From: Sporodiniella umbellata
Lineage: Eukaryota > Mucoromycota > Mucoromycetes > Mucorales > Rhizopodaceae
Reading direction: 5' to 3'
DNA: 64,000 nt
NCBI GenBank assembly: GCA_025677835.1
Contig: JAIXMR010000047.1
Coordinates: 62,001 to 126,000, forward strand
Of the stretch, positions 6,373-51,329 are shown in pieces. The translations under genes were made by a program, and so were the position numbers. The notes beneath the pieces are model-generated. The model was not told the DNA's origin. It made no database searches and worked only from the letters and a program-made list of their open reading frames with translations. The first letter of the stretch is position 1. Every line of letters starts with the position of its first letter.

Positions 6373-7739
6373 ATGGAAGAGATTGGAATTCACATTAAGT
6401 CAGAAGTAAGACGCCAAAAGCTTTTTTTGCAAACTTTGATTAATGTTTCCGTTATTGTTTTATTTGTAGGCAAAGGACATCAGTAACACTCTTCCCCTCA
6501 AAGAGGAACCACTCGAAGATCTATCCGAAAAAGATCTATACGTTAAATTAAAAAAGCTTCAAAGAGACATCGAATTCATTGAGCTTCAAGAAGAGTACAT
6601 TAAAGATGAACAAAAAAATCTCAAGAGAGAACTTGTTCGAGCACAAGAGGAAGTAAAGCGCATCAAGTCTGTTCCCCTTGTATTGGGTCAGTTTTTGGAG
6701 CCTATTGATCAGCACACAGGCATCGTTGGCTCTACTACAGGCTCCAACTACGTTGTACGCATTTTGAGTACAATTGATCGTGAATTGTTAAAACCAAGCT
6801 CATCAGTTGCTTTGCATCGTCATTCTAATGCTCTTGTTGATGTTTTACCACCAGAGGCCGACAGCAGTATTTCGCTTTTAGGATCTGATGAAAAGCCTGA
6901 TGTATCTTATGCTGATGTAGGAGGTTTGGATATTCAAAAGCAGGAAATCCGGGAAGCTGTGGAGCTACCTTTGACTCACTTTGATCTTTATCGCCAAATT
7001 GGTATTGATCCACCAAGAGGTGTTTTACTTTACGGCCCTCCAGGTACAGGCAAAACCATGCTAGTCAAAGCTGTTGCACATCACACCACAGCCAGTTTTA
7101 TTCGTGTGGTGGGATCAGAATTTGTGCAAAAATATCTTGGTGAAGGACCACGTATGGTTCGCGATGTATTCAGATTAGCTCGCGAAAACTCCCCTGCTAT
7201 TGTATTTATTGACGAAATTGATGCTATTGCTACAAAGCGTTTCGATGCTCAAACGGGTGCTGATAGAGAAGTGCAGCGTATTCTTCTTGAACTGCTTAAT
7301 CAAATGGACGGATTCGATCAAACATCAAATGTTAAAGTCATCATGGCTACCAATCGTGCAGATACACTAGATCCTGCTTTGTTACGTCCAGGACGTCTTG
7401 ATAGAAAGATTGAGTTCCCTACACCCGACAGACGTCAAAAGCGTCTTATTTTCCAAACAGTCACATCAAAAATGAACTTGTCTGAAGAAGTTGACTTAGA
7501 AGATTGTAAGGAAGCATCTAAAGAATTAAATTCTAGCATTATTAACTTTTTTTTCTTTTGCGCTTTTAGTTGTATCACGACCCGATAAGCTATCAGGTGC
7601 TGAAATTGCTGCTATTTGTCAAGAAGCTGGTATGCAAGCAGTGAGAAAAAACCGTTATGTTATTTTGAGCAAAGATTTGGAGAAGGGATACAAAGCCAAC
7701 GTAAAGAAGGAGGATTCGAACTTTGATTTTTATAAATAA
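6373..7739 (+). CDS. RPT3: 26S proteasome regulatory particle AAA-ATPase Rpt3
   Basis: One of six AAA+ unfoldase subunits in the proteasome base. Model: join(6373..6405, 6470..7505, 7570..7739), 412 aa (yeast 428, human PSMC4 418). Order: N-terminal coiled coil (~25-80), OB domain (~80-150), then the AAA domain with '[18 protein letters not shown]', Walker A 'GPPGTGKT' (~200-207), Walker B '[10 protein letters not shown]' (~256), sensor '[26 protein letters not shown]' and the C-terminal small domain '[14 protein letters not shown]'. The C-terminus ends FDFYK, identical to the Rpt3 tail and a hydrophobic-Tyr-X motif of the kind that docks into the 20S alpha ring. The intron at 7506-7569 removes an in-frame read-through that would truncate the protein. 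The identity to Rpt3 rather than another Rpt is supported by the tail and the short N-terminus. Confidence 0.96.
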
Positions 7740-28022: not shown

Positions 28023-31000
28023 ATGAAAGTTTTTGAAAAGAGCAGTGATTTTCCTGAGAACTGGTTCTTTATTAAGAATCATAGTAACGGCTATGTGTTG
28101 ATGGTCGAAAATGAGTCTCAAGAGACAGGAAGTCCTGTCGTTCTTTCTACTATTCGAACCAAAGATTATTCTTCGCAACTTTGGCGCTATGATCCCAAGG
28201 GATTCATTGTAAACAAAAAGTCAGGCCAGGTTATGGATGTTGCAAAAGGTAATTGAAAGTGCTATCCAAACGGGATAAATCCGAGAATTTCGGTCATTCA
28301 ATATGCCCTATGATAGGTAACGCAAAGGCTGGCGTAGACATTGTACAGCAAATCTCTTCTGAGGATAAGTCCTCTCAAAAATTTGGCCTGTCTTCTCAAG
28401 GCCATATCTTCTTGGTCAATAACGATTCGCTCGTTCTCGGCATCAAAGAGTCTTTTTTTTCTAGACGTGAGGGTCTTCATGTCCATCTTCAGTTAGTCGA
28501 TGGACGCCATTTGGATCGCAAAGAACAACGTTGGGACTTTGTTCTTCCTGTGATCAAAGACGACAGCGATAAATCGTCTGATAAAATACATGAGCGCTCT
28601 CTCCCTCCTTCTGCTAGACCTGACTCTTTGGCTGGCAGAAAAAGTTCTCGTAAATTGATTGATAAATATACACGTATCAATCTATCATATACTCATTTCA
28701 TCCTTAGATCGTCTTTCTTTCATGTCTGATTCTTCTCCTCGCTCCAGTATCGATCAAGAAGAAGCCACACGCATTCCTAGCGGTACTTTTCCTGACAAGC
28801 CTTTTCTCCTAAAGTCTGACGTCTCCGGTCTCTATATCAGTACTGAGGCCTCTACCGCAGATAAGGCTGGATCCCAACTCTCGATTCAAGCTTTCCGTAA
28901 GAGAGGATATGAAAGTCAACTGTGGATCTATGAAAGCTCTACCAACCGTATCGTAAGTAAGCTGTCCAATCTTGTCCTGGGCATCGAAAGCAACTCTGTC
29001 AAAGATGGCGCCTACATCAATCTCACCAACTCCTCCTCGGCTCAAGATAAAACTCAAGCTTGGGTTCTATCTCCTGAAGGCGAGGTCACTTTGAAAAGTG
29101 ATCCTAGCTACGTTCTTGGTTTCAAGGACAGTTGGTTTGGAAACCGTGAAGGTGCTCATCTTCATATTCAAAAGAAGGCCAAAGGCAACCAACAACAAAA
29201 ATTCACTGTCGTTCTACCTATCATTAAGTCTAGTGCTAACGATAAAAAGGGTGTTTTCCCTGAAGGATGGTTTTTCGTAAAGAGCCAGGCCCATGGTTTG
29301 GTATTAACAGTATTGAATACTGGTACTATCGCTGCCGAAGTCGAAGCAACAAAGTTGGATTCCGCAAATTATAGTCGCCAACTTTGGATGTACGAAAACG
29401 GTTATCTTGTTAACAGAGCTTCTAAAATGGTGCTTGATATTCGTGGAGGTAAGCTTGAGAATGGTTCTTTTAGTTTAGCCCAAGAAAAAAGTCTCGTACA
29501 CTTTTTTAATTACAATCGATAATTAGGTTCCATTACATCTGGCGCTACCATTTGTCAATATACTAAAAAGACCGAGAACGCTGAAAACCAACTCTGGGAG
29601 TTATCAGCTGGAAGCTCTATCTATTCCGCATCAAACAAAAACCTTGTATTAACCGTAAAAGAAAACGAATTGAAAAGATCTGCCTTGTTTTTATCTGAGA
29701 AAAAATCTTCGAATGCTAAAGGCCAATGCTGGAACTTTGTTTTGCCGGTGTTTAAACCAAGAAGTAAAGGGATAAGCAAAATTATATGTTACTTACAGTT
29801 TTCTTTTTTTTTTAAAAAAAAAAATAACAATAATCGTTAGAGTTTACGCTTGCTGAGTTCCCATCAGGCTGGTTCTTTGTTCGTTCTTATGTAAAAGGCT
29901 CTACTACAGAGTCACCCTATGTTCTTACTGCTTCCGAAAAATCTATTGAATTATCGCTTCTTGATCGCGACAATTGGCAAAGCCAACTTTGGTCTTTTAC
30001 TGATGGAAAATTGACAAACTATAGCACTGATCTTGTTATTCATGTTGATAGTAAGTTTGCAATACAAGTATATGTTGGGGTTGATCTGTTCCTTATATAT
30101 TTTTTCTCTCTAAAGATTACACAGCTGGATCAGAAATCGTTCAAAAAGAAAAAGCCGACAAAAAGTGGTGCATGACAACGGATGGTTACCTTTTGTACAG
30201 CTCTGAAAAAGAAAAGCTTGCTTTGTCTGCTAACCTCCAAGGCGACAGGCACAAATTGATTTTGACTGCAAACAAATATTCTCAAGAGCATCAATGGGGT
30301 TTCTTGGTTCCCAAGTTTGGCTATCGTCATGGATATCAAATTCTCACTCAATGGTCTGTCTCTGTTATCCGTGTACTAAAAGAAACCGGTAGTTCAAAGA
30401 CTATCGTAAATACTAACGTAATCGATCACCCTGCTGCTGAATGGCCCCAAGGAGAATTCTTCATTCAAGGCGGTGGCGGGTACGCACTTGTACCAGAACA
30501 ATCTGAAGCTGGATCTTTCGTCACCATGAAGCAATTGGCTTTGGATAACGCGGAAATATTTAAATGGTCATACAGAAATGGTTATCTTGTACATGTTGTA
30601 TCAGGATATGTTTTGCATATTCAAGGTAGTTTGCAAAAGAAATTAGCCTTTTTTAGCACCGTTTAAACTAATATCTATATAGATAAATGGGTAGATGGTG
30701 CCAAGCTTCAACTATCAAAAGAGGTTGCAGATGATCAGGATCAGTTCTGGACTCTCAAGACGAATGGCCAAATAGTCTCACAAAAGAACTCAAAGTTCGG
30801 TTTGAATTTTGTTCAACTGAACGGTGCATGGACTGTTCAAATCTCCTCTACTATATATTATGCCTGGAGATTACTGTACGGAAAGTATGAGCTTCGATAT
30901 TCTGAAAAGGAGGGTCGAGAGATTTCGTACCTTGTTAGCTTCCGAAGAATTATTTTAACCCTGAGAATCATCCGCAAACGTAAGTGATTGTTTCTATAAA

Positions 31001-34000
31001 CGACGTTTTGTTTGATTTCTAACCTTTTGGTATAGAAAAAGTAGATCAAAAGCTGGTCACTCGTTCATATGGTGTTTTTCCAGAAGGTTGGTTGTTCATC
31101 CGGTCTAAGAAGAACCCAGAACTGGCCATTACTGTTTCCGATAAGAAGAAAGGTGCTCAACTGATCTTATCTAAGCTCAGTACCAAGACTTTTACTCGCC
31201 AATTGTGGAGATACAACGATGATAAATGTCTTGTAAATATGGAAACTAACTATGTCATTGATGTTGCTGGCGGAAAGCTCCTTCAAGGTGCTAATGTTAT
31301 CCAATGGTCACCCAAATTTCTACGTATAAGCCAAAAGAATCAAATCTGGGGTCTTTCTGTTGACGGACACATACATACCAAAACCAACACAAATCTCATT
31401 CTTTCTGGTCAAATTAAGGAAGGTGCGCAGTTGAAGTTGAACAAACGAAGTGAATCAGTTCAGGAAGATCAGCAGTGGACTTTTGCTCGCCCTATCTTTG
31501 GCAAGACATCGCATACCAGTTATGCTGCTCAGCAGGCCCACCGAAGTAGTTTGGTAATCGACAAAGTGGACAGCAACGAAACGGTTCGTGTGTCTAAAGA
31601 AGATGAGTATGAGAGCGTAAATAAGCGAGTCATCACTCGCAGATGGGGCGTTTTCCCTACCGGTAGTTTCTTTATTCGTTGTAAGAACTTGGCTTTGACT
31701 GTTGAGCGAGACGAATCCTCTCAGAAATACCGCATTGTACTCCGAACTTTGAACTTTAAGCAGTATAAGCTTCAGTATTGGACATATATGGATGGCTATT
31801 TGGTCAATGCAGAAACTGGATTTGTTCTTGATGCTCAAGCATCTGAGGATGTTTCGGTTGAGAGTGCTCAAACTCAAGTTTACCTTAATGAAAAAGGATC
31901 TCATGAAGGCCAATTTTGGGACCTTGGGGCTAATGGAGAGATACATTTGAGATCTAACGAGCGTTTAGTCATTGGTGTATCTAAAGCTGCTGATATTAAA
32001 GAAGGCGCACTTGTTGGCCTCCAAAGAATTCGTGTCGTTCTTTCAGAAGCCGACAATAAGCAAGTAACCGAGCTTAAGTCTGATTCTTGGTTGCACTGGA
32101 CATTCTCCAAACCAGTTTTCGGCAAACGTGCTATAACTTCCGGTACACCTGATGAGACCCCCGAGGTTGAAAGCTTTGAAGATGAAAAAACCGATATTCA
32201 GGAGCAAGATGAGGTGGTTCCTGAGAATGAAGATGAAGAGGAAGAAGAGTATGACGATGAGGATGTAGTAATTCAACCAGCTGGGGAGATTGAGGATTCG
32301 TTTGAGTCACCTATTGCAAGTCCTACACCCAGTCCCTCCCCTTCCGACAAAACTACTGCTTCAAATAAAGGAGTTGAAATCGTCTCTCCTAATACCGTTG
32401 TCGAGGCAGTCGAAACCAAAGATTTTAAGCCTGAAGAAGTTGAGACTGAGGTTAATGTCAAAAAGGATGAAGGTACTGTGGTTGAAGTTGTGCAAGAAGG
32501 TGAATTAATCAGCAGAGTACCACACGATGCTCCTTCTTCTCGACCTACCACGCCATCACCTAGCTCTAGCGCCCGCCCGCAGAAACATGTTCGTACAAAG
32601 TCCAACTCTTCAAACCGTAGCTCATTCCAACTCGAAGAACACTATGTCCCTACTGGATTTGAGAAAATTGTACGCTACAAGAATCACCAAGGTGGTTTCC
32701 CTGAAGGTTATTTTTTCATTAAAAGCTCTCTTCATGGTTATGTCCTGGAGCTTATAGGTGAAGTTAAAGATGGTGCTGAGGTTGTTTTGACAAAAATCAA
32801 ATCCCAAGATTTTGCCTCGCAACTTTGGACTTGTCAAAACGATCACTTAGTTAACCTCAAGGGCGATTCTCTCGTTTTAGATGCTGCTGAAGGCTCACTA
32901 GTTACAGGGGAGCGTCTGCACATGTCCGAAAAGACTTTGGAATCTGTAGGAAACGACGATCAGCTCTGGGATTTCACTCACGAGAAATTCATTCTGCTCA
33001 AAAACCAACGCCATATTGTATTATCCATTAAGACCGCCAAAACCAAATCAACTCCAGAGCGTATTGAGGTTTACTGTCAAGAAGCTAAAAATCTTATTAA
33101 AAAGGAAGCGCGTCCAGAGCAACGGTGGGAGATCTTGGTCCCAGCGTTAATCGCGGTTAACAACCACGATGATGGTGTTCATATCATTGAGCCTGGAAAA
33201 GTCAATACTGTTTCTAGCTCTGCTGCAACAATCCTTTCCTACAAGTGGCTCAAAGAAACTTTCTGTCATCGTGTTACTGAGCGAAACCAGTGGCCTAGTA
33301 CTGAGGGATGGTTTTTTATTCGCTTTGGTAATGATAATCATTTTATAGCCTCCGGAGAAACCTCTCAGAGTGAAATTGGCCTGTATGAAATTACAGAGAA
33401 ATCAGACTACAGAAGGTTCTTATGGACATATGTTGATGGATACTTAATCAATTATCGATACAATCTTCGCTTGGTTTTGAATTCATGTAATGGTTCATAT
33501 TCTACTTCTATTTCAGAAACTAATTTTTTTTATAGCTCGTCGCTGGGTTTTATCAAACTCACATGCCACAATGGATCAAAAATTCTTTATCTCATCCAAC
33601 GGTGCTCTTTCAATCCGTATCTCCAAAATTGTCTATTATATTAGATTCATTAACAAGTCTGGATCCTACTACTTGGATGTTACTACTGATGCAACAGCCT
33701 CAGACGTACAGGGTTTGGAGATGCATATTCCTGTAGTATCTGATACTGAATATCAGAAGACACTTACTGAAGCTCATCATAAAGCTTATAGCTTTATTCG
33801 TAAGCAAAAAACTGATTGGTCCATTTTAAGTGCAAGTAATTCTATCCGTCGAGCTATATTTCCTGTTTCTACCTGGTTCTTTGTTAAAGCAAGTGGGGCT
33901 GAAGAACTTGTCTTGTGCATCAAAGACAATGAGTCGCAGCTTGCTCTCAAAAAATTAGATTTGAAAAACTTCAAGAACCAACTCTGGACCTTTAACGATG

Positions 34001-37000
34001 GACACTTGATCAATTACGACAGTAAATTTGTTATCACTGTCGAAGGTAAGCACTTGTACATGAATGTGAGCTATACAGCGTTCGGTTTATTTACCAGCTA
34101 CTGTTCTTTTCACTCCTTTAGGTTCTGTTGCCTCTAATTCAAAGATTATTTATTCATCTGAAGCTGGTATAAGCACTCAAAAATGGATTTTAACTACCGA
34201 TGGACATATTGAACTTGAAGCTCATGAGCGTTTCGCTCTCAGCGTTGTTGAACTCAAAGACTCACAACCATTGATTCTTGATTCATCTAATAAGCCAAAC
34301 TACAAGGTCATCCAATGGAAATTTTCAACTCCAGTATTCGGCAAAAGAACAATCAACGCTGCCAAGGCTATAGAAAGTGGCGATATAATTGAAGGCGAAA
34401 AAGAAGTACAGACAATTAGTAAAGCTAACTTGGCCCTTACTCGTCGTTCAACAAAAACTGCTTATGATACTTACCATGAAACATTAACCATTGTTCGTTG
34501 GTGGAAGATTGTCTTCTTGCGCCGCGTATCTACTTGTCGTACCCAAAAAGAATATCTGCAGGTTCTTGAAGAGTATCGCCAAATTTTGCACAGTAGACTT
34601 GTTCAATATATTACTGTCTGTCGCACCTCAATTTATGGTGAAGAATTACGTATTATAGAAGATTTTGTAGCAGAAAACGAACAGTTGTTTGAAAAGCACA
34701 TTTTTACAAAGTCATTAGCAAGCCTTAAAAATCACAAGCCTGAAGATACTATCAAAAATCTAGATTTGACCAATGCAGTGGAAGAGGTTTGCAGTGAAAT
34801 AGAAAAGAAGGTGCAATCAATTGCCCAATCTAAACCTAAAGAAGGCTTAAGCCTGCCAAAGTCTGAAATGGAAACTGTTGATCGTTCCGTAATCGCTATC
34901 GATAAGGTTCAAATCACTGTTCGTCGCTATATCATTATCATTCGACGCCGTGTTACTGAGGCAGTGGAAAACAACAAGAAGCCCGAAGATATTGTTAAAA
35001 TGATTGAAGATTCGCACAAAGAGTTGGTTGTTGAAATCGACGAGATACAAAAAGACTCTGACAAAGCATTGACCGAATCTACCTATATCAGTACTGGGTA
35101 TAAAAAGCAGCTTGAAGAGTCAGTTCATACTGTCATCAAGAGTTCTAAAAACGAATTGGAAAAAATTACATCTAATGTCGAAAAGTGTTGTCATTACACA
35201 CACGAAGATTGGGATAACATCACAAAAAAATTGGACAGTGAAATAACAGAGTGCAAGAACACTATTGCATCTTATGACAATCTAACCGAAGAAGAACAGC
35301 CTATTGTTGTTGAGGAAGACGATATTGAAAGTGCACGTTTAGACGTCGTTGCTACTGTAGCGGAAACTAAAGGTTATATTCAACAATGGTTTACGAACTT
35401 CGAAAGTGATCTTGAATACACTAGCAAGCACTCTCCCAAAAATACTGAGGTTATAATTGATGCAGCTAAATTGGAAGTAGTCTCAAAGCTGGACGAAACA
35501 ATTGCATTGGTTTCTATGCTCTCTAGAACCTTGACTTATTTGACATGGAAGGAGCGTTACCATTTGATTTCGTATTTAATCACAATTAAGACACATTTGG
35601 TATCCTCCTTGAATTATATTGGAGCTCAGCCTAAAGATCGATTGGAAACATTCAAAATTATCTTTGACAAGCGCCAACAAATCGATTTGTTAAAAAATAT
35701 CGAGGTGATAATTAAAAAGACATCCCATTCGAACACAGTTGAGGACATTGATTCAAGGACCCAATCTAAGGCATTAAAATCATCTGAAATCGAAAAAAAC
35801 AAAACGGTAAAAAAAATAACAAACATGCCAGTTGTCAATCAACAAGCCATTGAAACTTCTAAGGTCGTTAACACTGTTGCTGACAAGGTCACTGGTGCTC
35901 TCATTGATGATAAGAAGACTGTATCTCATATTGAAGACATTGTCAAGGATGCTAAATATGTCACTGTTGAAGTCATTGCTGACGGCAAGAAGACCCAGAC
36001 TGTCATTGACACCGCTCACGTTACTGATGAAGTTATCTCTACTCACAAGGATAATGAATTCACCAAGAAGGTAGTCACTGGCGCTGTTACTGACGCTATT
36101 GTCAACGACAAGACTGTCACTTCTGTCATCGAGACTATTGCTGACACTAAGAAGACTGTCCCTGTTAAGATTGTGAAAGACGAAAAAGAAATCGATCACA
36201 CCAAGAAGGACCAAGTTTACGTGATTGTCAAGAAGACTGACGAGATTACCTCTGAAGTCAAGCCCAAGGTCAAGACTGTGGAAGAGATTCACACTGTAGT
36301 AGACGTGATTGAAGGCAAGACCAAGCCTACCAAGCCTACCAAGCCTACTGGGCATACCGGCAAGGTAGCTGAAGTCAAGAAGACTGAAGTCATCGAGACT
36401 ATCACTACCAAGCCTGTCACTGAAGTAGTTGATGTTACTGAAGAAGTTACTGTCATTGAAACTTCTAAGGTTGTTAACACTGTCGCTGACAAAGTCACTG
36501 GTGCTCTCATTGATGATAAGAAGACTGTATCTCATATTGAAGACATTGTCAAGGATGCTAAATATGTCACTGTTGAAGTCATTGCTGACGGCAAGAAGAC
36601 CCAGACTGTCATTGATACCGCTCATGTTACTGATGAAGTTATCTCTACTCACAAGGATAACGAATTCACCAAGAAGGTAGTCACTGGCGCTGTTACTGAC
36701 GCTATTGTCAACGACAAGACTGTCACTTCTGTCATCGAGACTATTGCTGACACTAAGAAGACTGTCCCTGTTAAGATTGTGAAAGATGAGAAAGAAATCG
36801 ATCACACCAAGAAGGACCAAGTTTACGTGATTGTCAAGAAGACTGACGAGATTACCTCTGAAGTCAAGCCCAAGGTCAAGACTGTGGAAGAGATTCAACT
36901 GTAGTAGACGTGATTGAAGGCAAGACTAAGCCTACCAAGCCTACTGAAAAGGTAGCTGAAGTCAAGAAGACTGAAGTCATCGAGACTATCACTACCAAGC

Positions 37001-40000
37001 CTGTCACTGAAGTAGTTGATATTACTGAAGAAGTTACTGTCATTGAAACTTCTAAGGTTGTTAACACTGTCGCTGACAAAGTCACTGGTGCTCTCATTGA
37101 CGATAAGAAGACTGTATCTCATATTGAAGACATTGTCAAGGATGCTAAATATGTCACTGTTGAAGTCATTGCTGACGGCAAGAAGACCCAGACTGTCATT
37201 GATACCGCTCATGTTACTGATGAAGTTATCTCTACTCACAAGGATAACGAATTCACCAAGAAGGTAGTCACTGGCGCTGTTACTGACGCTATTGTCAACG
37301 ACAAGACTGTCACTTCTGTCATCGAGACTATTGCTGACACTAAGAAGACTGTCCCTGTTAAGATTGTGAAAGATGAGAAAGAAATCGATCACACCAAGAA
37401 GGACCAAGTTTACGTGATTGTCAAGAAGACTGACGAGATTACCTCTGAAGTCAAGCCCAAGGTCAAGACTGTGGAAGAGATTCACACTGTAGTAGACGTG
37501 ATTGAAGGCAAGACCAAGCCTACCAAGCCTACCAAGCCTACTGGAAGAAGGTAGCTGAAGTCAAGAAGACTGAAGTCATCGAGACTATCACTACCAAGCC
37601 TGTCACTGAAGTAGTTGATATTACTGAAGAAGTTACTGTCATTGAAACTTCTAAGGTTGTTAACACTGTCGCTGACAAAGTCACTGGTGCTCTCATTGAC
37701 GATAAGAAGACTGTATCTCATATTGAAGACATTGTCAAGGATCTAAATATGTCACTGTTGAAGTCATTGCTGACGGCAAGAAGACCCAGACTGTCATTGA
37801 TACCGCTCATGTTACTGATGAAGTTATCTCTACTCACAAGGATAACGAATTCACCAAGAAGGTAGTCACTGGCGCTGTTACTGACGCTATTGTCAACGAC
37901 AAGACTGTCACTTCTGTCATCGAGACTATTGCTGACACTAAGAAGACTGTCCCTGTTAAGATTGTGAAAGATGAGAAAGAAATCGATCACACCAAGAAGG
38001 ACCAAGTTTACGTGATTGTCAAGAAGACTGACGAGATTACCTCTGAAGTCAAGCCCAAGGTCAAGACTGTGGAAGAGATTCACACTGTAGTAGACGTGAT
38101 TGAAGGCAAGACCAAGCCTACCAAGCCTACCAAGCCTACTGGGCATACCGGCAAGGTAGCTGAAGTCAAGAAGACTGAAGTCATCGAGACTATCACTACC
38201 AAGCCTGTCACTGAAGTAGTTGATGTTACTGAAGAAGTTACTGTCATTGAAACTTCTAAGGTCGTTAACACTGTCGCTGACAAGTCACTGGTGCTCTCAT
38301 TGACGATAAGAAGACTGTATCTCATATTGAAGACATTGTCAAGGATGCTAAATATGTCACTGTTGAAGTCATTGCTGACGGCAAGAAGACTCAAACAGTC
38401 ATTGATACCGCTCATGTTACTGATGAAGTTATCTCTACTCACAAGGATAACGAATTCACCAAGAAGGTAGTCACTGGCGCTGTTACTGACGCTATTGTCA
38501 ACGACAAGACTGTCACTTCTGTCATCGAGACTATTGCTGACACTAAGAAGACTGTCCCTGTTAAGATTGTGAAAGATGAGAAAGAAATCGATCACACCAA
38601 GAAGGACCAAGTCTATGTGATTGTCAAGAAGACTGATGAGATTACCTCTGAAGTCAAGCCCAAGGTCAAGACTGTGGAAGAGATTCATACTGTAGTCGAT
38701 GTAATCGAAGGCAAGACTAAGCCTACCAAGCCTACTGGAAAGGTAGCTGAAGTAAAGAAGACCAAGGTTGTTGAGACAGTTTTGGCAAAGCCTGAAATAA
38801 TGACAGTTACACAGGAAGCTGATAAGAAAACAGTCCTTGTTTGTGAAGACGAAGTTAGCTCTGTTGCGATTACTTCCACTACTAATGTTGATTGCTCATC
38901 TAAACCAATTGACTTAAAGGTCACTGTAGAAAAGAACGGCGTTACTGAAACTGTGGAGGTCGTTAAAGATAGCTCTGATAATGATATTACACAGTTCGTA
39001 GAAGTTGGTTACATAGCTGGCCAAGTTATGGCTAAAAAAGAAACAGACGATAACAATGGAAAGACAACTATCACTGTTGCTAGAGACGTTGGTGCAGGTA
39101 TGATACAGATATCTATATATTTAATGATGGTAATTTACACTTTTTTATAAACGCAGATGTAGTTAAGAATGTAGAAATTGCTACAGAGAACACATATGGC
39201 TGGTTATCCCAATTGGCTGACAAAATTAACTCTATGCTTGAGGTTGGAGATTGTAAAGAAAATGTTGAAGCAGTTATTGCTTCGGAAGAGTCCCAGTTAC
39301 AACATATCATTGAGAAATCGAAGGCTGAATCAACAACTAACGTTCAAGGAATAGATGTTTACTATGAAAAACTACATGAAACTTTCAAGAATCAACTTCT
39401 GGATATCAAAGCTTCTGTAAATGAAGTTTACACTGATAATGAGGTGCCCAAAAAGATTGAATTTGAGAATGTTAAAGAAAACATCAAGAAGGTTGTTGAT
39501 AACCAATTCCAAGATGTCAAGAAAGCAGTCTCCAAAGATTCCTTGCCCAAAAAGACTTCTAAGGATGAGGTTAACTCAGGCTCTGTTACTGTTGTTGACA
39601 ATAGCATTGCTAAAATCATTGAAACTGTCCGCTATCAGAATATTGAGCAGGCCCAGAAAGGAACCAAGGTGGTTGTTTCTAATGTTGTTCGCGATACTCA
39701 AGAAAAACTCATTACACTGCATGGAATTCTATTTGGAAAGATTAAAGATGTTATAGTCTGCAGGGAAATCAAGACCGATCAGAAGAAAAAGGATATTCAA
39801 AAACTTATCGCTGACGCCAATGAACAGGTTTCAGTTGTTATTTCTGAGGGAAAGAAAGCCTTTGAATACAACTATAGTGTCTCAGACAGCTGTAAGCCCA
39901 ATGTTGTAGCAACTATTCAACATGCTCAAAAACAAGCCGTTGACTCGTTTAACAATATCCAAAACATTATATCTACTCAGATGTCTACTATTGAAGAAGT

Positions 40001-41015
40001 AGTTATTTCCAACAGCGACTTTGAGATTATTGGTGAGAAGGTTTCTGTCATTGAAATGCAATCCAAGCGTAAAGCGATTTCTGCTTTGGAGCACACTACT
40101 GAAGCTGCGATATCTGTTGGGTTTGAAGGCAAGACTGTTACGTGGGTTGAAACTGCTGAACTTCCTGAGTCATTCAAAGATGTTAAAGTCTTTGCTTTTG
40201 ATTTGCCTGATACAGTTGTCGATTATCGTTCAACAATTTCTCAAATTTGGAATACGATTGTGTCCAAGAAGGGAGGTTCTGCTTTTGAAAACGTCAATAT
40301 TCAAAGGCTCATTGTAAGATGGTACAATGTTTTCCTTGAGCAACGGTGCAAGATAAATTACTCTACGTGCGATAGAGAAGTTCTACTGATTTCCTTGAAG
40401 CTTGTTTTGACCGAACACTCTTTGGAAAAGGCTTTTACTGAAGAGGAGCTCAATACTCTTTGTATAACGTGGTTTAAACTTCAACCTTTCGGTGACAGCA
40501 GCAGTCTCAAGAAGATCAATCAGTTTGACAAAATGTACTCTGTTTCTATTTCAAGTGGATTCAAGCTTTGTACTTTGATGAAGGTTGCTAGAAATGCTAA
40601 TCTTAGCTGGGACGCTCAATTTACTGGTGATGTATTTGCTGCTTGCATTGCAAGAGACAATATTACTGATATCAGAAGTACTTCAAGCACTGTTCTTTCT
40701 AATGCTGCTATGCTCTGTTGTTTACAAGATCCAAGCGAGCTTGCTATTGTATCGTCTAACCCTGAAATCCTTGAAGCTGCCAAGCAAAATGGCTCTAAAA
40801 CAGTTTTACTTGATCGTTACGAAAGTACACCTAACGCTCAAGATTACGATGTACGCTTTGATGGCTTAGATGTTTTTGCTGAAAGTTATGAAACTCTTCA
40901 CGAATCTAAATCCACTACAAAAACAGAAGCCCCAGTTACTCGCTCATGGTTCCAAAGAGTAGTCTCTACTGTCTCTGAAGCTGCTGAATCAGTAACACAC
41001 GCTGTCATTGGATAA
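28023..41015 (+). CDS. Giant modular protein: ~10 RICIN-like beta-trefoil modules, helical region, tandem repeat array, HAD-like C-terminus (frame broken in the array)
   Basis: Model: join(28023..28248, 28317..28649, 28708..29448, 29527..29763, 29841..30050, 30116..30625, 30683..30979, 31036..33486, 33536..34045, 34122..39097, 39157..41015). All ten introns are in phase 1. About ten modules repeat 'FPEGWFFIKS..HG..L', 'SQLW.Y.DGYLVN..S..VLD(V/I).GG' and a 'Q.W' ending; they resemble RICIN/beta-trefoil lectin units and no toxin catalytic chain is present. An acidic Ser/Pro linker sits at ~32150-32640. After 34.4 kb come basic helices ('VRWWKIVFLRRV', 'VRRYIIIIRRRV'), then five ~200-aa repeats (35849-38760). 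The C-terminus has a HAD-type signature ('VFAFDLPDTVVD', later 'LAIVSSNPEILEAAKQNGSKTVLLDR'). Four indels in the array (about 36897 -1, 37547 +2, 37742 -1, 38283 -1) disrupt the frame. If they are sequencing errors the protein has ~4116 aa; as written it stops at 36904 (~2765 aa). Function unknown. Confidence 0.8.
35849..38760 (+). repeat. Tandem array, five copies of a ~588-606-bp coding unit
   Basis: Unit starts are at 35849, 36455, 37042, 37641 and 38246, giving lengths 606, 587, 599 and 605 plus a partial last copy. Each encodes ~196-202 aa rich in Val/Thr/Lys/Asp ('IETSKVVNTVADKVTGALID', ... 'KPTKPTG' linker). The copies are nearly identical at the DNA level; most differences fall in the KPT/GHTG linker or are the four indels. 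This indicates recent unequal crossing-over or gene conversion. The antisense strand is also open over long stretches only because of codon choice. Confidence 0.92.
40183..40860 (+). other. Degenerate HAD (haloacid dehalogenase type II-like) domain of the giant gene
   Basis: Motif I is 'FAFDLPDTVVDY' (nucleophile Asp codon at ~40200, the second motif position altered from the usual YGT). Motif II corresponds to 'SISSGF' (Ser kept). The Lys-Pro motif III is replaced by 'ACIARDNITD'. The loop 'LAIVSSNPEILEAAKQNGSKTVLLDR' matches the family's motif IV region. Retained Asp/Ser but lost Lys suggests a pseudoenzyme. This is an inference from recalled motifs. Confidence 0.55.
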
Positions 41016-42281: not shown

Positions 42282-45200
42282 TTAAAAATACTGTTTCTCA
42301 ATCAATTAGTATGGAGTCTTTAAATCATAAAAGTATAACATAATTACCAAGCTTGCAGCGAACACAATGTCACGCTTTATATCTTGCTCTGCTTGTTCCA
42401 TCTTTTTGTAAAGGCTGGTATCTCCTACCATACGAGCAGCACCCATCACTTCACGACACGTTTCATCTATTCTACTTATACATCGTACTATGGACCCTTC
42501 CAATACGTCTGTCAAATCAGTAATATGTTTGAAAGGCTACAGTTGCAAGTTAAAATATAGTTTTTAACAGACTCTCACATTACCAGTCCTTTTGCCCACT
42601 CATAGACTACTTCAACTAAGCCAAATCGGAAGCCATCGACATAATCTTCGACAGAAATAGACAACCCGCATTCTGCTTGTTGTTCTGCGAGACGCTTTGC
42701 ATATGAAAGTACGATTTCTTTTCCTTTAGCCAGTTTAGGCGTCAACCTTGGCTCACTGTCGCTACGCTCTTGAAATACAAAGCAGGAAAGAATGGCCACT
42801 AATTCTGCGGGTTCAAAATCAGCAAACACATTGTCTAAAACGAGCTCCGTAAGCAAAAGCTCATCTGATGAATTAATTTCGCAAGCAACTCGCCCTTTAA
42901 GTTGGACTGTGCCCTGGTCGTCAATATAGTTCAATCGACGGAGAACTTCAATACGTTGATGATAGTCAGGCAACAACTCTAAGTTTTGATCGGAGATAGT
43001 CATTTTCAGCAAATCTATTTGGCTAGAGAGTTTTTTATGTGCATGTATGAGTGCGTACTAAATTAGAGGAGTTAGGTTAATACGGTTGTATAACAGCTGG
43101 ATCTTGATAAAAAAAATTACATGTTCGTTTAGCTCTGGGCATTTGGTACATTGGAACTCTGTACGTAATCTTTTCATGAAGCTATTTTTTTTTTGAAGCA
43201 TCTCTTGAAACTCAACGCTTTTAATTTTTCCCCAATCATACTCTGTAAAACCATTTTGGCAAATATTTTCTCCAAAAGATTGAAGTTCTTGGGTAGCTTG
43301 CACAGCTTCAATGCTGTTCTTTTGGTCAGTCATTATGGAGTCTATATCTATTTTTAAGGCGTTTTTGGTGATATAAAGAAGGTCAGGTGCACCGATTACG
43401 ACAATTTCTGTTTTTTCGTTTCCTTGTTCTGGGGTGTATATTTCTGTGATTGGTAAAGGAGGAGCCTCATCCAAATTGGGCGTATCATTAATATCAATAT
43501 TTTTGTCCATCAAAACAAGACAATAGAAAGATCGGTGACCGGAATTGACGTTTGAAGGAACAGGCTTCAGAATCATAGCCGGGGAATTACGATATAAATT
43601 CGATTTGATAACCACCAACCGCCCGGGACATAATGCTCTATTTCCCGCTGGCGTCGCCGTGATAAATTGAGTTGTCATTACACGGTTCCAATGAACTATT
43701 TCGCTACAAACATCATAAAAATTTTCGAGGTCTGTTTCACAGATGGCACAGTCTAGTTGACGTAAGGCGCTTCTTTTTTGTTCATTTTCGTTTACTAATC
43801 TCTCTGTATCAGGTAGAAGTTTTTGGGTGCTGTTTTCTGAAAAACTTCGCTTAATCATCTCTTCTACTTTGAGAGCCTCAACACGAAGTAAGTTTAATAT
43901 CATGTTGTAGGTCAACCTAAATTGAGATTCGAGTTTGGTGGGTTTTCCCAAAAGCATAGTTGACAAAACGGATGCTTCTGGAGGCTCCTCACCTCCCGCT
44001 GCAATAATCACTACACCTGTATTGTCAAGGCCACGACGACCCGCACGCCCGGACATCTGGGTGTATTCACCAGGCAGAAGATAACGAAAGTTGCGTCCGT
44101 CATGCTTGCGAATACCAGAAAATACCACACAACGTGCAGGCATATTAACACCCATGGCAAAGGTTTCGGTTGCAAATAGTACTTTTACTAAGCCTCTAGC
44201 AAACAATATTTCCACAATTTCTTTGATAATAGGCAATAAACCGCTATGGTGTACAGCGATACCTCTACTCAAAAGATCTCGCGTTCGCAAAATTTGGGGT
44301 AGCTCTTTATCAGAGCCGCGCAATCTAACCAAGCTACGCTCAATGAATACGTGAATTTCACTCTTTTCTAAACTCGTGCATAAGTCTGTTTTAGATAGAC
44401 CAGATGCATATTCTTCGCAACGTTTTTTTGAGAAGGTGAAGATAACCACTGGCAAAAGGCTTTTTGCTTTCAGCATGCCAATCAAGTGTACAAAAAGATT
44501 ACGATCCTGTTTATCGGAAAAAAAAAAATGTCAAAGAAAAAAAGATGCGTTATTAACGAAGATAAGAATAGGGGAAAATAAAACGCTTACTGTCTGGATG
44601 GTTGATTGGTAACTACGACCTATTGGCTTACTACCTCCTCGAACACCACCCCGGCCTCCACGACTTCCACGTGTATTACTATTTCCACTTGACTTGTCGA
44701 CTTGCTCTTTACGCTTCAACATTGCATCCTGCGCTTTTTTGTAGCTTCACAAAAAATGTGTTAGCTTTTGTTCTTTTTTAGCCGTTTGTAGATCTCTTAC
44801 CCTACTGTGCTGAGTTTGGTTTCGTTTGCCCCTACTATTTTGTAAATATCTTTGTTTGCATAAAGATGATGTTCTAAAGGAACTGGTCTCTTCAATGTAC
44901 TGATAACGTAAATATCTTTTTTTTTTGTACGTCTAAAGTCAAAGAATTAAATATAACCTAGGATTGTTTGAAATTTCGAGTCATACCCAACCCAGCCGGC
45001 AAACTCTCTTGTATTTGGTACAGTGGCTGATAGCAGAATTATACTTACGTGAGCTGGAAGCATAATGATCACTTCCTCCCAAACGACGCCTCTCTAAAAA
45101 GCCAACTAAGTAAGTTCCCTTTTCTTTTTACTGTAAATGTAATCGTGTGCATGCAGATACGTCTACAAAATATACGTACTTCTATATCGTTCACGTAGTG

Positions 45201-49476: not shown

Positions 49477-51329
49477 TTATTTTGCCTGTAACATACTGAT
49501 CAAAGATGCTTGCGACCTCATAACCTATAAAAATCAATTAGTTTTATGAAGCAAGATAAGATGGTTATACAAACTTACCTCCAATGCCTGTTTAACTTCT
49601 AAATGCCGGCGAGCAGCATCAAGCCAGTCAAGAGCCAATCGCTTAGGCCATCCAGTGAGTTGATTAACTTCTCTTGTAGCGTTTTCCAAGTCTTTTTCAG
49701 TATGGAGAAAGTGCTCAGCACGAGCAAGTCTTGACTCAACGTCGTCGCCAGTGACCAAACCCTTCTTTTTGAACATCAGACCACTTAGTGCAATAGATAA
49801 AAGGTGGGATATCATGGACGACTCCTCATCAGGTATTAAAGCTGCACGACGTACTTCGCGTGAAACAACCTCAAAACGTTCAGAGAGTTGGGCTATAGAT
49901 GTAATACCATACTGTGCGACGTGTTTTTGAACACTTGAGGCTACCAATTGAAGCAGTTCGTCGCTTTGACGTTGACCTAAATTGGCAAAGGGCGTCTTGT
50001 TGCTCAACTTTTTAATAGCCTCCAACTCCAACTCGAATTGGGTTTGTTGGCCAGAAAGTGCCGCTTTTTTTAAGGCGTCAATAGCAACAATAAGTTGGTG
50101 GGCTTTGCGGTTATCATCTAGTAGCTCTGCATCAGCTTGTGCTAACGATTCAAGCTCGATTTGTTTAGCAGCAACCAGCTCGATTTGGGACAGACGACCG
50201 CCTCGTTCAGTCTCTACTTGTTTTTTGACCTGCTCGACATAATCTGACTGAATCTTGATGGCTTTGTTTTTCAGCTCAGTTTCAAGTTCGGCTAAGCGCT
50301 TTTGACGCAGGGCTGCCAATTCCTTTGCACGAACATCGGAATGCTCCTGCTCTACCTTTGCTGTCTGTTTGGAGATATCAGCTTCAACGGCGCTTACGTA
50401 TTTTTGGGTGCGATCGTCTGCCTTTGTTTGGTGTTCTTGAATTCTTTCAGATACTTGTACACGATGAGCTTCGATGTTTTCAGAAACAGTATTTAATTTC
50501 TTTTCAAGAGCATTAATCTCATTGCGGGCTTTGTCTTCTTCTTCCTGGATCAATTTGAAAGCTTTATCGAGTAACTCAATATCCCTAATGGCTAAATCGG
50601 ACAAGCGCTTGGCGTACCCTTGCATTCCAGCATCGTTTAACACTCTAACAAGACCTTCAACAGTTTTTGCAAAGGTATTAACTGCTTCTTGTTCTGAGTG
50701 AGCAAACTGAGGTATGGGCTGGTTTTCGGTGGTGTGAATTACGTTAGCAAAGAAAGTTTCTTTCTTGAACTTTCTGCGTCTGGCTGATGGTGAAGGACCA
50801 GACCCAGGTGCGGCAGGAGGCTCTTTATCTCCTCTAAGCTGAGCAATGGTGTCGGAAACATACTCGTACCAATCTTGGGCAGTCTCTTTAGTCTGGTTCG
50901 CAAGCTGCTTGGCTGAATCAGCATGTGTACCAACTTGCTGTTTGATGTCGCTTGCCTGTCGATAATATTGTTTAAATCGATCATCTGCTGCCCAATCTTC
51001 TAACTGATCCAATAGCTGTTCCCCGCCAGGAATGTAAGTTGTATAAGTATCATGAAAGGCCTCATTCTTTAATGCAAAGTAGGTTGCTCCAGAATAGGAG
51101 GCAGCCGAGATTATAGTGAGCCAAGCTAGCTTCTTTCCTAAAGAAGAGCCCTTCACAGCTGTTTGTTCAACAGTAGAATATAATCTCTTGGGCTAAATCG
51201 GAAAGATTAGTATTTGTTGCGGTTTAGTTTACATGTTTAATAATAGCTTACAGTGAGCAGACGCGCGCTAGCCCTAGAGTTAGCCACGGATCGGGCGGAA
51301 ACATTTAGTCTGGAAGCACCCCTTAACAT
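49477..51329 (-). CDS. MIC60: MICOS core subunit Mic60 (mitofilin)
   Basis: Inner-membrane protein that shapes crista junctions. Model: complement(join(49477..49524, 49579..51192, 51252..51329)), 579 aa (yeast Mic60 540). The first exon encodes a basic, Ser/Arg-rich presequence (MLRGASRLNVSARSVANSR...). One membrane segment follows at ~47-66 ('KLAWLTIISAASYSGATYFAL'). Then come a disordered Pro/Gly linker, a long coiled coil (~200-400) and the C-terminal mitofilin domain ('ESSMISHLLSIALSGLMFKKKGLVTGDDVESRLARAEHFL', 'LTGWPKRLALDWLDAARRHLEVKQALEVMRSQASLISM'). The last 16-codon exon supplies the conserved lipid-binding end. All splices are in phase. Confidence 0.95.

Follow-up and report, generated by a model that had tools for sequence, protein, structure and literature searches.

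Gene Organization at the Locus

The DNA analysed here, referred to as the window, is a stretch of 64,000 nucleotides from a contig of 172,163 bases (C141) in the 25.9 Mb genome of Sporodiniella umbellata. On its forward strand, a spliced gene is located at 28023-41012, with the stop codon ending at 41015, and corresponds to a public protein model of 4,033 residues (P0031) deposited as 'hypothetical protein BY458DRAFT_490968' (Sporodiniella umbellata, Mucorales, Rhizopodaceae). When the residues of this model were mapped onto the window, 4,028 of the 4,033 were matched directly in 14 blocks and the other five fell on split codons. Ten introns are given by the map outside an array of repeats, nine of them 5′ and one 3′ of the array, and the segments flanking the array have an open reading frame between introns. 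Inside the array, the public model bridges frame breaks by three small gaps, one of which is only 20 bases long. A sequence-only reading had proposed at 28023-41015 a giant gene consisting of trefoil modules, a Val/Thr/Lys array, and a haloacid dehalogenase (HAD)-like domain; the parts and their order are borne out by the present analysis, whereas the single open frame is not, owing to the ten introns and the frame breaks in the array.

The gene was also compared with a paralog on another contig of the same genome (C57). The spliced alignment of this paralog to the window gave good exons up to ~36.4 kb and, for want of a comparable array in the paralog, implausible introns beyond that point, and the public model was therefore used there. 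The encoded chain begins with the first trefoil at residue 10, and no stretch of 19 residues in it exceeds a hydropathy of 1.4, although hydrophobic motifs of the kind ascribed to Gellins may be shorter than that. The features of the gene are collected in Table 1. Neighbouring genes in the window, at 43058-44485 (-), 49534-51156 (-), and 6683-7588 (+), are of ordinary kinds according to Pfam, namely a Mtr4-like helicase, mitofilin, and a proteasomal AAA ATPase.

Table 1. Coordinates of the gene and its parts within the window.
Feature	Position	Strand	Basis
Complete Gellin-type gene (model P0031 of 4033 aa, with ten introns lying outside the array)	28023..41015	+	Residue map
Beta-trefoil 1, spans intron, relative of 6lci	28050..28612	+	Own profile and PDB search
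Beta-trefoil 2	28788..29255	+	Own profile and residue map
Beta-trefoil 3, spans introns	29256..29854	+	Own profile and residue map
Beta-trefoil 4, spans intron	29858..30408	+	Own profile and residue map
Beta-trefoil 5, spans intron	30442..30963	+	Own profile and residue map
Beta-trefoil 6	31077..31577	+	Own profile and residue map
Beta-trefoil 7	31653..32195	+	Own profile and residue map
Linker joining trefoils 7 and 8, acidic and rich in Ser/Pro	32196..32696	+	Sequence, by eye
Beta-trefoil 8	32697..33200	+	Own profile and residue map
Beta-trefoil 9, spans intron	33291..33825	+	Own profile and residue map
Beta-trefoil 10, spans intron	33859..34417	+	Own profile and residue map
Middle part, helix-rich on visual inspection, which aligns with the C57 paralog	34418..35847	+	Spliced alignment
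Five-copy Val/Thr/Lys array	35848..38762	+	Repeat comparison
Part separating array from tail, helix-rich by eye	39156..40094	+	Sequence and residue map
Domain resembling haloacid dehalogenase type II, with a degenerate active site	40185..40823	+	Profile searches and motif alignment

The Val/Thr/Lys Array

The Val/Thr/Lys repeats seen in the sequence-only reading form an array of five units, each of 518-606 bases, which are 95.6-99.3% identical. The reading frame is broken in copies 2, 4, and 5 by single-base gaps and in copy 3 by a gap of 7 bases. These gaps favour the view of a gene in decay, in which the breaks are real and sever the tail. However, the 27 variable sites of the array are distributed over the first, second, and third codon positions in the ratio of 2 : 1 : 24, and the predominance of the third position indicates that the array is maintained as protein. 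Moreover, the breaks are confined to the near-identical array, where an assembly is least reliable, and the flanking parts are open between introns. Decay is improbable on these grounds, and we infer that the frame breaks are assembly faults in near-identical repeats.

A profile of the array was searched against a set of 43 proteins, comprising the window protein and its relatives, and matched only P0031 itself and the Rhizopus proteins P0028 (R. stolonifer, 8e-39) and P0029 (R. delemar, 9.4e-10), values that are to be read with the strong composition bias of the array in mind. In Pfam, no family matched the array above its cut-off; the best was Laminin_G_2 (E 0.0017; 19.2 bits against 22.9). 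A weak signal of internal duplication was found within the unit (E 0.014). An AlphaFold2 prediction of 1.5 units alone reached a mean pLDDT of 59 (31-37 for the other four models); its quality did not warrant a fold search, and it gives no more than a hint that the units might form helix hairpins. Random low-complexity sequence was considered and rejected.

The Beta-Trefoil Modules

Ten beta-trefoils, strongly divergent from one another, were found in P0031 by a profile of our own that was built from 20 modules, ten from the window protein and ten from the C57 paralog; the count of ten in each of these two proteins is expected since the profile was built from them. This profile matched none of the 43 proteins after shuffling. 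An independent Pfam scan of P0031 gave Ricin_B_lectin in nine stretches (E 1.7e-58) and RicinB_lectin_2 in five, both well above the Pfam cut-off. Among the 41 proteins other than the window protein and its paralog, 22 also carry ten trefoils by our profile (24 of 43 in all), and in the remaining 19, many of which are partial models, the count is two to nine. Elsewhere in the genome, ricin-type trefoils also score over the Pfam cut-off at the loci L001 (C133), L002 (C152), and L004 (C1).

The closest solved relative of exon 1, which holds the first module, is by far the structure 6lci, 'mdaA-1' (E 1.1e-37), whose sequence is almost the same as that of the N-terminal end of a Mucor bainieri protein (P0012). 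In the literature searched, 6lci is not named. Behind it in the PDB, exon 1 matches lectins that bind sugars or the lectin portion of a ribosome-inactivating protein, at E 3e-4 to 6e-3. Like the ricin-type beta-trefoil lectins (PF00652 and PF14200), the window protein has the trefoil fold with QxW-type repeats; unlike them, it carries ten diverged copies in one chain and no toxin chain in Pfam at E up to 0.1.

These likenesses could be explained by a lectin scaffold in which the trefoils bind sugars and which serves in the cytosol for defence or storage. The Pfam matches and the lectins that follow 6lci are in line with such a role, as are the public names of two relatives (e.g., 'carbohydrate-binding module family 13'). 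On the other hand, the strong divergence of the ten modules, the distance by which 6lci leads the solved structures, and a hydropathy profile in which no secretion signal was seen all point away from it, and a lectin scaffold appears quite improbable. A secreted lectin was also considered and rejected, as was a ricin-type toxin: at E up to 0.1, the two trefoil families are all that Pfam lists for P0031, with no toxin or ribosome-inactivating chain.

Relatives and a Second Gene in the Same Genome

Three protein searches, two of which scored the candidates sharing most words (~8,000 each) and the third 1,145 candidates, yielded 42 proteins, of which 28 are Mucorales by genus name and 7 are of Mortierella type at 23-26% identity. 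A tree of 33 of the 43 rows was constructed by a quick method with a midpoint root, leaving out P0001, P0003-P0007, and P0033, none of which has more than five trefoils, together with P0038, P0039, and P0042, which are of Mortierella type. In this tree, the window protein is joined to that of Rhizopus stolonifer (support 100) within a clade of 12 rows that includes Mucor, Parasitella, and Gilbertella and in which the Mucor bainieri protein related to 6lci is also found. The paralog is placed with Rhizopus delemar RO3G_13835 in another clade. Since R. delemar and R. microsporus are represented in both clades, the duplication predates their split. Two relatives are peculiar in other respects. 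P0016 from Absidia repens combines seven trefoils with Pfam PF06985 (HET) in its public model and may be a real fusion or an annotation fault. P0033, labelled Rhizopus arrhizus, is 90% identical to the Mucor bainieri protein over 48% of the query and is possibly mislabelled.

The paralog, at C57:185559-203434 (-), is a second Gellin-type gene of 5,803 residues in nine exons, one of which spans 2,963 codons; this is our own model, in which introns were placed by splice signals, including one GC-AG. In its protein, ten trefoils are followed by long repeats, interspersed with hydrophobic stretches rich in Ala/Gly, and by a tail like that of the window protein; other repeats stand in place of the Val/Thr/Lys array. 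Trefoils of the same number are 35-54% identical between the two proteins. The hydrophobic stretches, mostly Ala/Gly-rich, lie between the repeats at residues 1975, 3161, 3421, 4394, 4632, and 5151. Five of the six have a look-alike in P0021 of Rhizopus delemar, and none was found in the window protein at the same threshold. They are possibly membrane or assembly segments.

The HAD-Like C-Terminal Tail

Profile searches for trefoil and HAD similarity had been set beforehand as a check that could refute the sequence-only reading, and both similarities were found. The tail of the window protein matches TIGR01428 at E 3.5e-8, yet with 33.7 bits against a curated cut-off of 125.4; all six proteins tested match this model (E 3.5e-8 to 2.4e-13), far under the cut-off in every case. 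Pfam Hydrolase is found on the tail at E 0.019, below its cut-off, and is not listed when the whole of P0031 is scanned at E up to 0.1. Searched alone against the PDB, the window tail recovers HAD hydrolases at E 1.2e-7, and a profile of eight of the 13 tails recovers epoxide hydrolases and haloacid dehalogenases with a best E of 2.6e-21. A designed TIM barrel in the latter search (40 positions, E 3.1e-6) is unrelated and was taken as chance. The fold assignment rests on these profiles because the AlphaFold2 structure, predicted from a two-row alignment, is too poor for a fold search (mean pLDDT 44).

In HAD type II enzymes, motif II provides Ser/Thr followed by Asn, motif III a Lys, and motif IV the catalytic Asp. 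The positions of these motifs in the tails were taken from alignments with PDB chains and among the 13 tails. The nucleophile Asp of motif I is kept in all 13 tails, as is a Thr or Ser four residues on. At motif II, Ser is present in one of 13 and Asn in none, and the stretch of motif III is not alignable, with any Lys absent there in 6/13. The catalytic Asp of motif IV is found in no tail; the corresponding column is occupied by Asp in 8wbk and by some other residue in 8wbm and 8wbn as deposited. Since the Asp of motif I is retained throughout and that of motif IV is lost throughout, the tail, which is real and conserved, is probably a non-hydrolysing HAD fold with a degenerate active site. 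It shares with the HAD type II and cis-epoxysuccinate hydrolases (TIGR01428; PDB 8wbk-8wbq, 8wmt, and 3umc) the similarity over the whole domain and the motif I Asp with its Thr/Ser, but differs from them in its fusion to a giant protein, the loss of the motif II Asn and the motif IV Asp, and a score far under the cut-off.

Tails occur in 13 of the 43 proteins. In the clade of the window protein, no other row has one; six of the other 11 are marked partial and five are not. It is scarcely credible that the HAD part represents an active enzyme with a gene of its own, which annotation alone has fused to that of the trefoils: the broken frame of the intervening array and the 30 of 43 models without a tail, including those five non-partial ones, could be read in this way, but many of the 30 are partial models, the 2,963-codon exon of the paralog and its short introns, as we placed them, connect the trefoils with the tail in an unbroken frame, ten of the 43 proteins hold ten trefoils and the tail within one model, and the missing motif IV Asp speaks against an active enzyme. 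We may also speculate, while giving the idea very little weight, on a 'trapped' HAD: the retained Asp would become esterified to a partner molecule, the lost motif IV Asp being needed for release, and on wounding the tail could couple the protein to a metabolite, a lipid, or a neighbour and thereby lock a gel. The literature searched, whose reach did not extend to the original Gellin description (Nguyen et al. 2021), contained no description of a HAD tail in Gellin-type proteins.

Probable Identity as a Gellin and Proposed Mechanism

Gellins, the subject of a 2021 paper by Nguyen et al. in Curr Biol, are said to be proteins of Mucoromycota with ten trefoil 'Gll' domains, some of which reportedly unfold in flow and form sheets; their hydrophobic motifs are said to bind membranes, and loss of Gellin reportedly leads to bleeding from wounds. 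The structure 6lci is presumably a module of the Mucor Gellin that was studied. The window protein comes from a member of Mucoromycota and has ten related beta-trefoils, in agreement with this definition, and its kinship to 6lci would tie it to that Gellin. It has in common with the Gll proteins of Nguyen et al. 2021 a very long chain, a start without signal-like character, a distribution across Mucorales, and a relative of its first module solved as 6lci; its array and HAD tail are possible differences. PMC12712441 states that Mucorales possess Gellins that cause protoplasmic gelation upon disturbance and that Gellins were not detected in Glomeromycotina, and PMC10023807 states that gelation occurs in Mucoromycota and supplies the reference to the 2021 paper.

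Taken as a whole, the gene very probably encodes a Gellin, probably cytosolic, which is a relative of the Mucor-type protein with 6lci as its first module and would gel the protoplasm when a hypha is cut. Gelation, unfolding by force, and membrane binding are attributed to the window protein by analogy with the published family. In the proposed mechanism, the fast outflow from a cut hypha would pull on the long chain, some trefoils would unfold and stick together into sheets, and other parts of the protein would hold membranes, so that the leaking protoplasm sets to a gel by which the wound is plugged. The array and the helix-rich parts could be spacers that stretch or stick; the tail could be a degenerate HAD fold used in binding or assembly rather than in dehalogenation. 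The structural role suggested in the sequence-only reading fits the Gellin family. Its view that no such protein had been described does not hold, given the public model, the relatives in Mucorales, the structure 6lci, and the ten-trefoil Gellin family; nor is the gene the strongest candidate for an undescribed system, being Gellin-type and thus of a known kind.

The window gene belongs to a known kind of protein, and its tail is the less familiar part. The identification would give a name to a giant 'hypothetical protein' that is present across Mucorales. The analysis also reveals two old Gellin-like lineages, each with members that carry a conserved, degenerate HAD tail, and raises the question of what role the tail and the fast-changing array may have in a gel driven by force.
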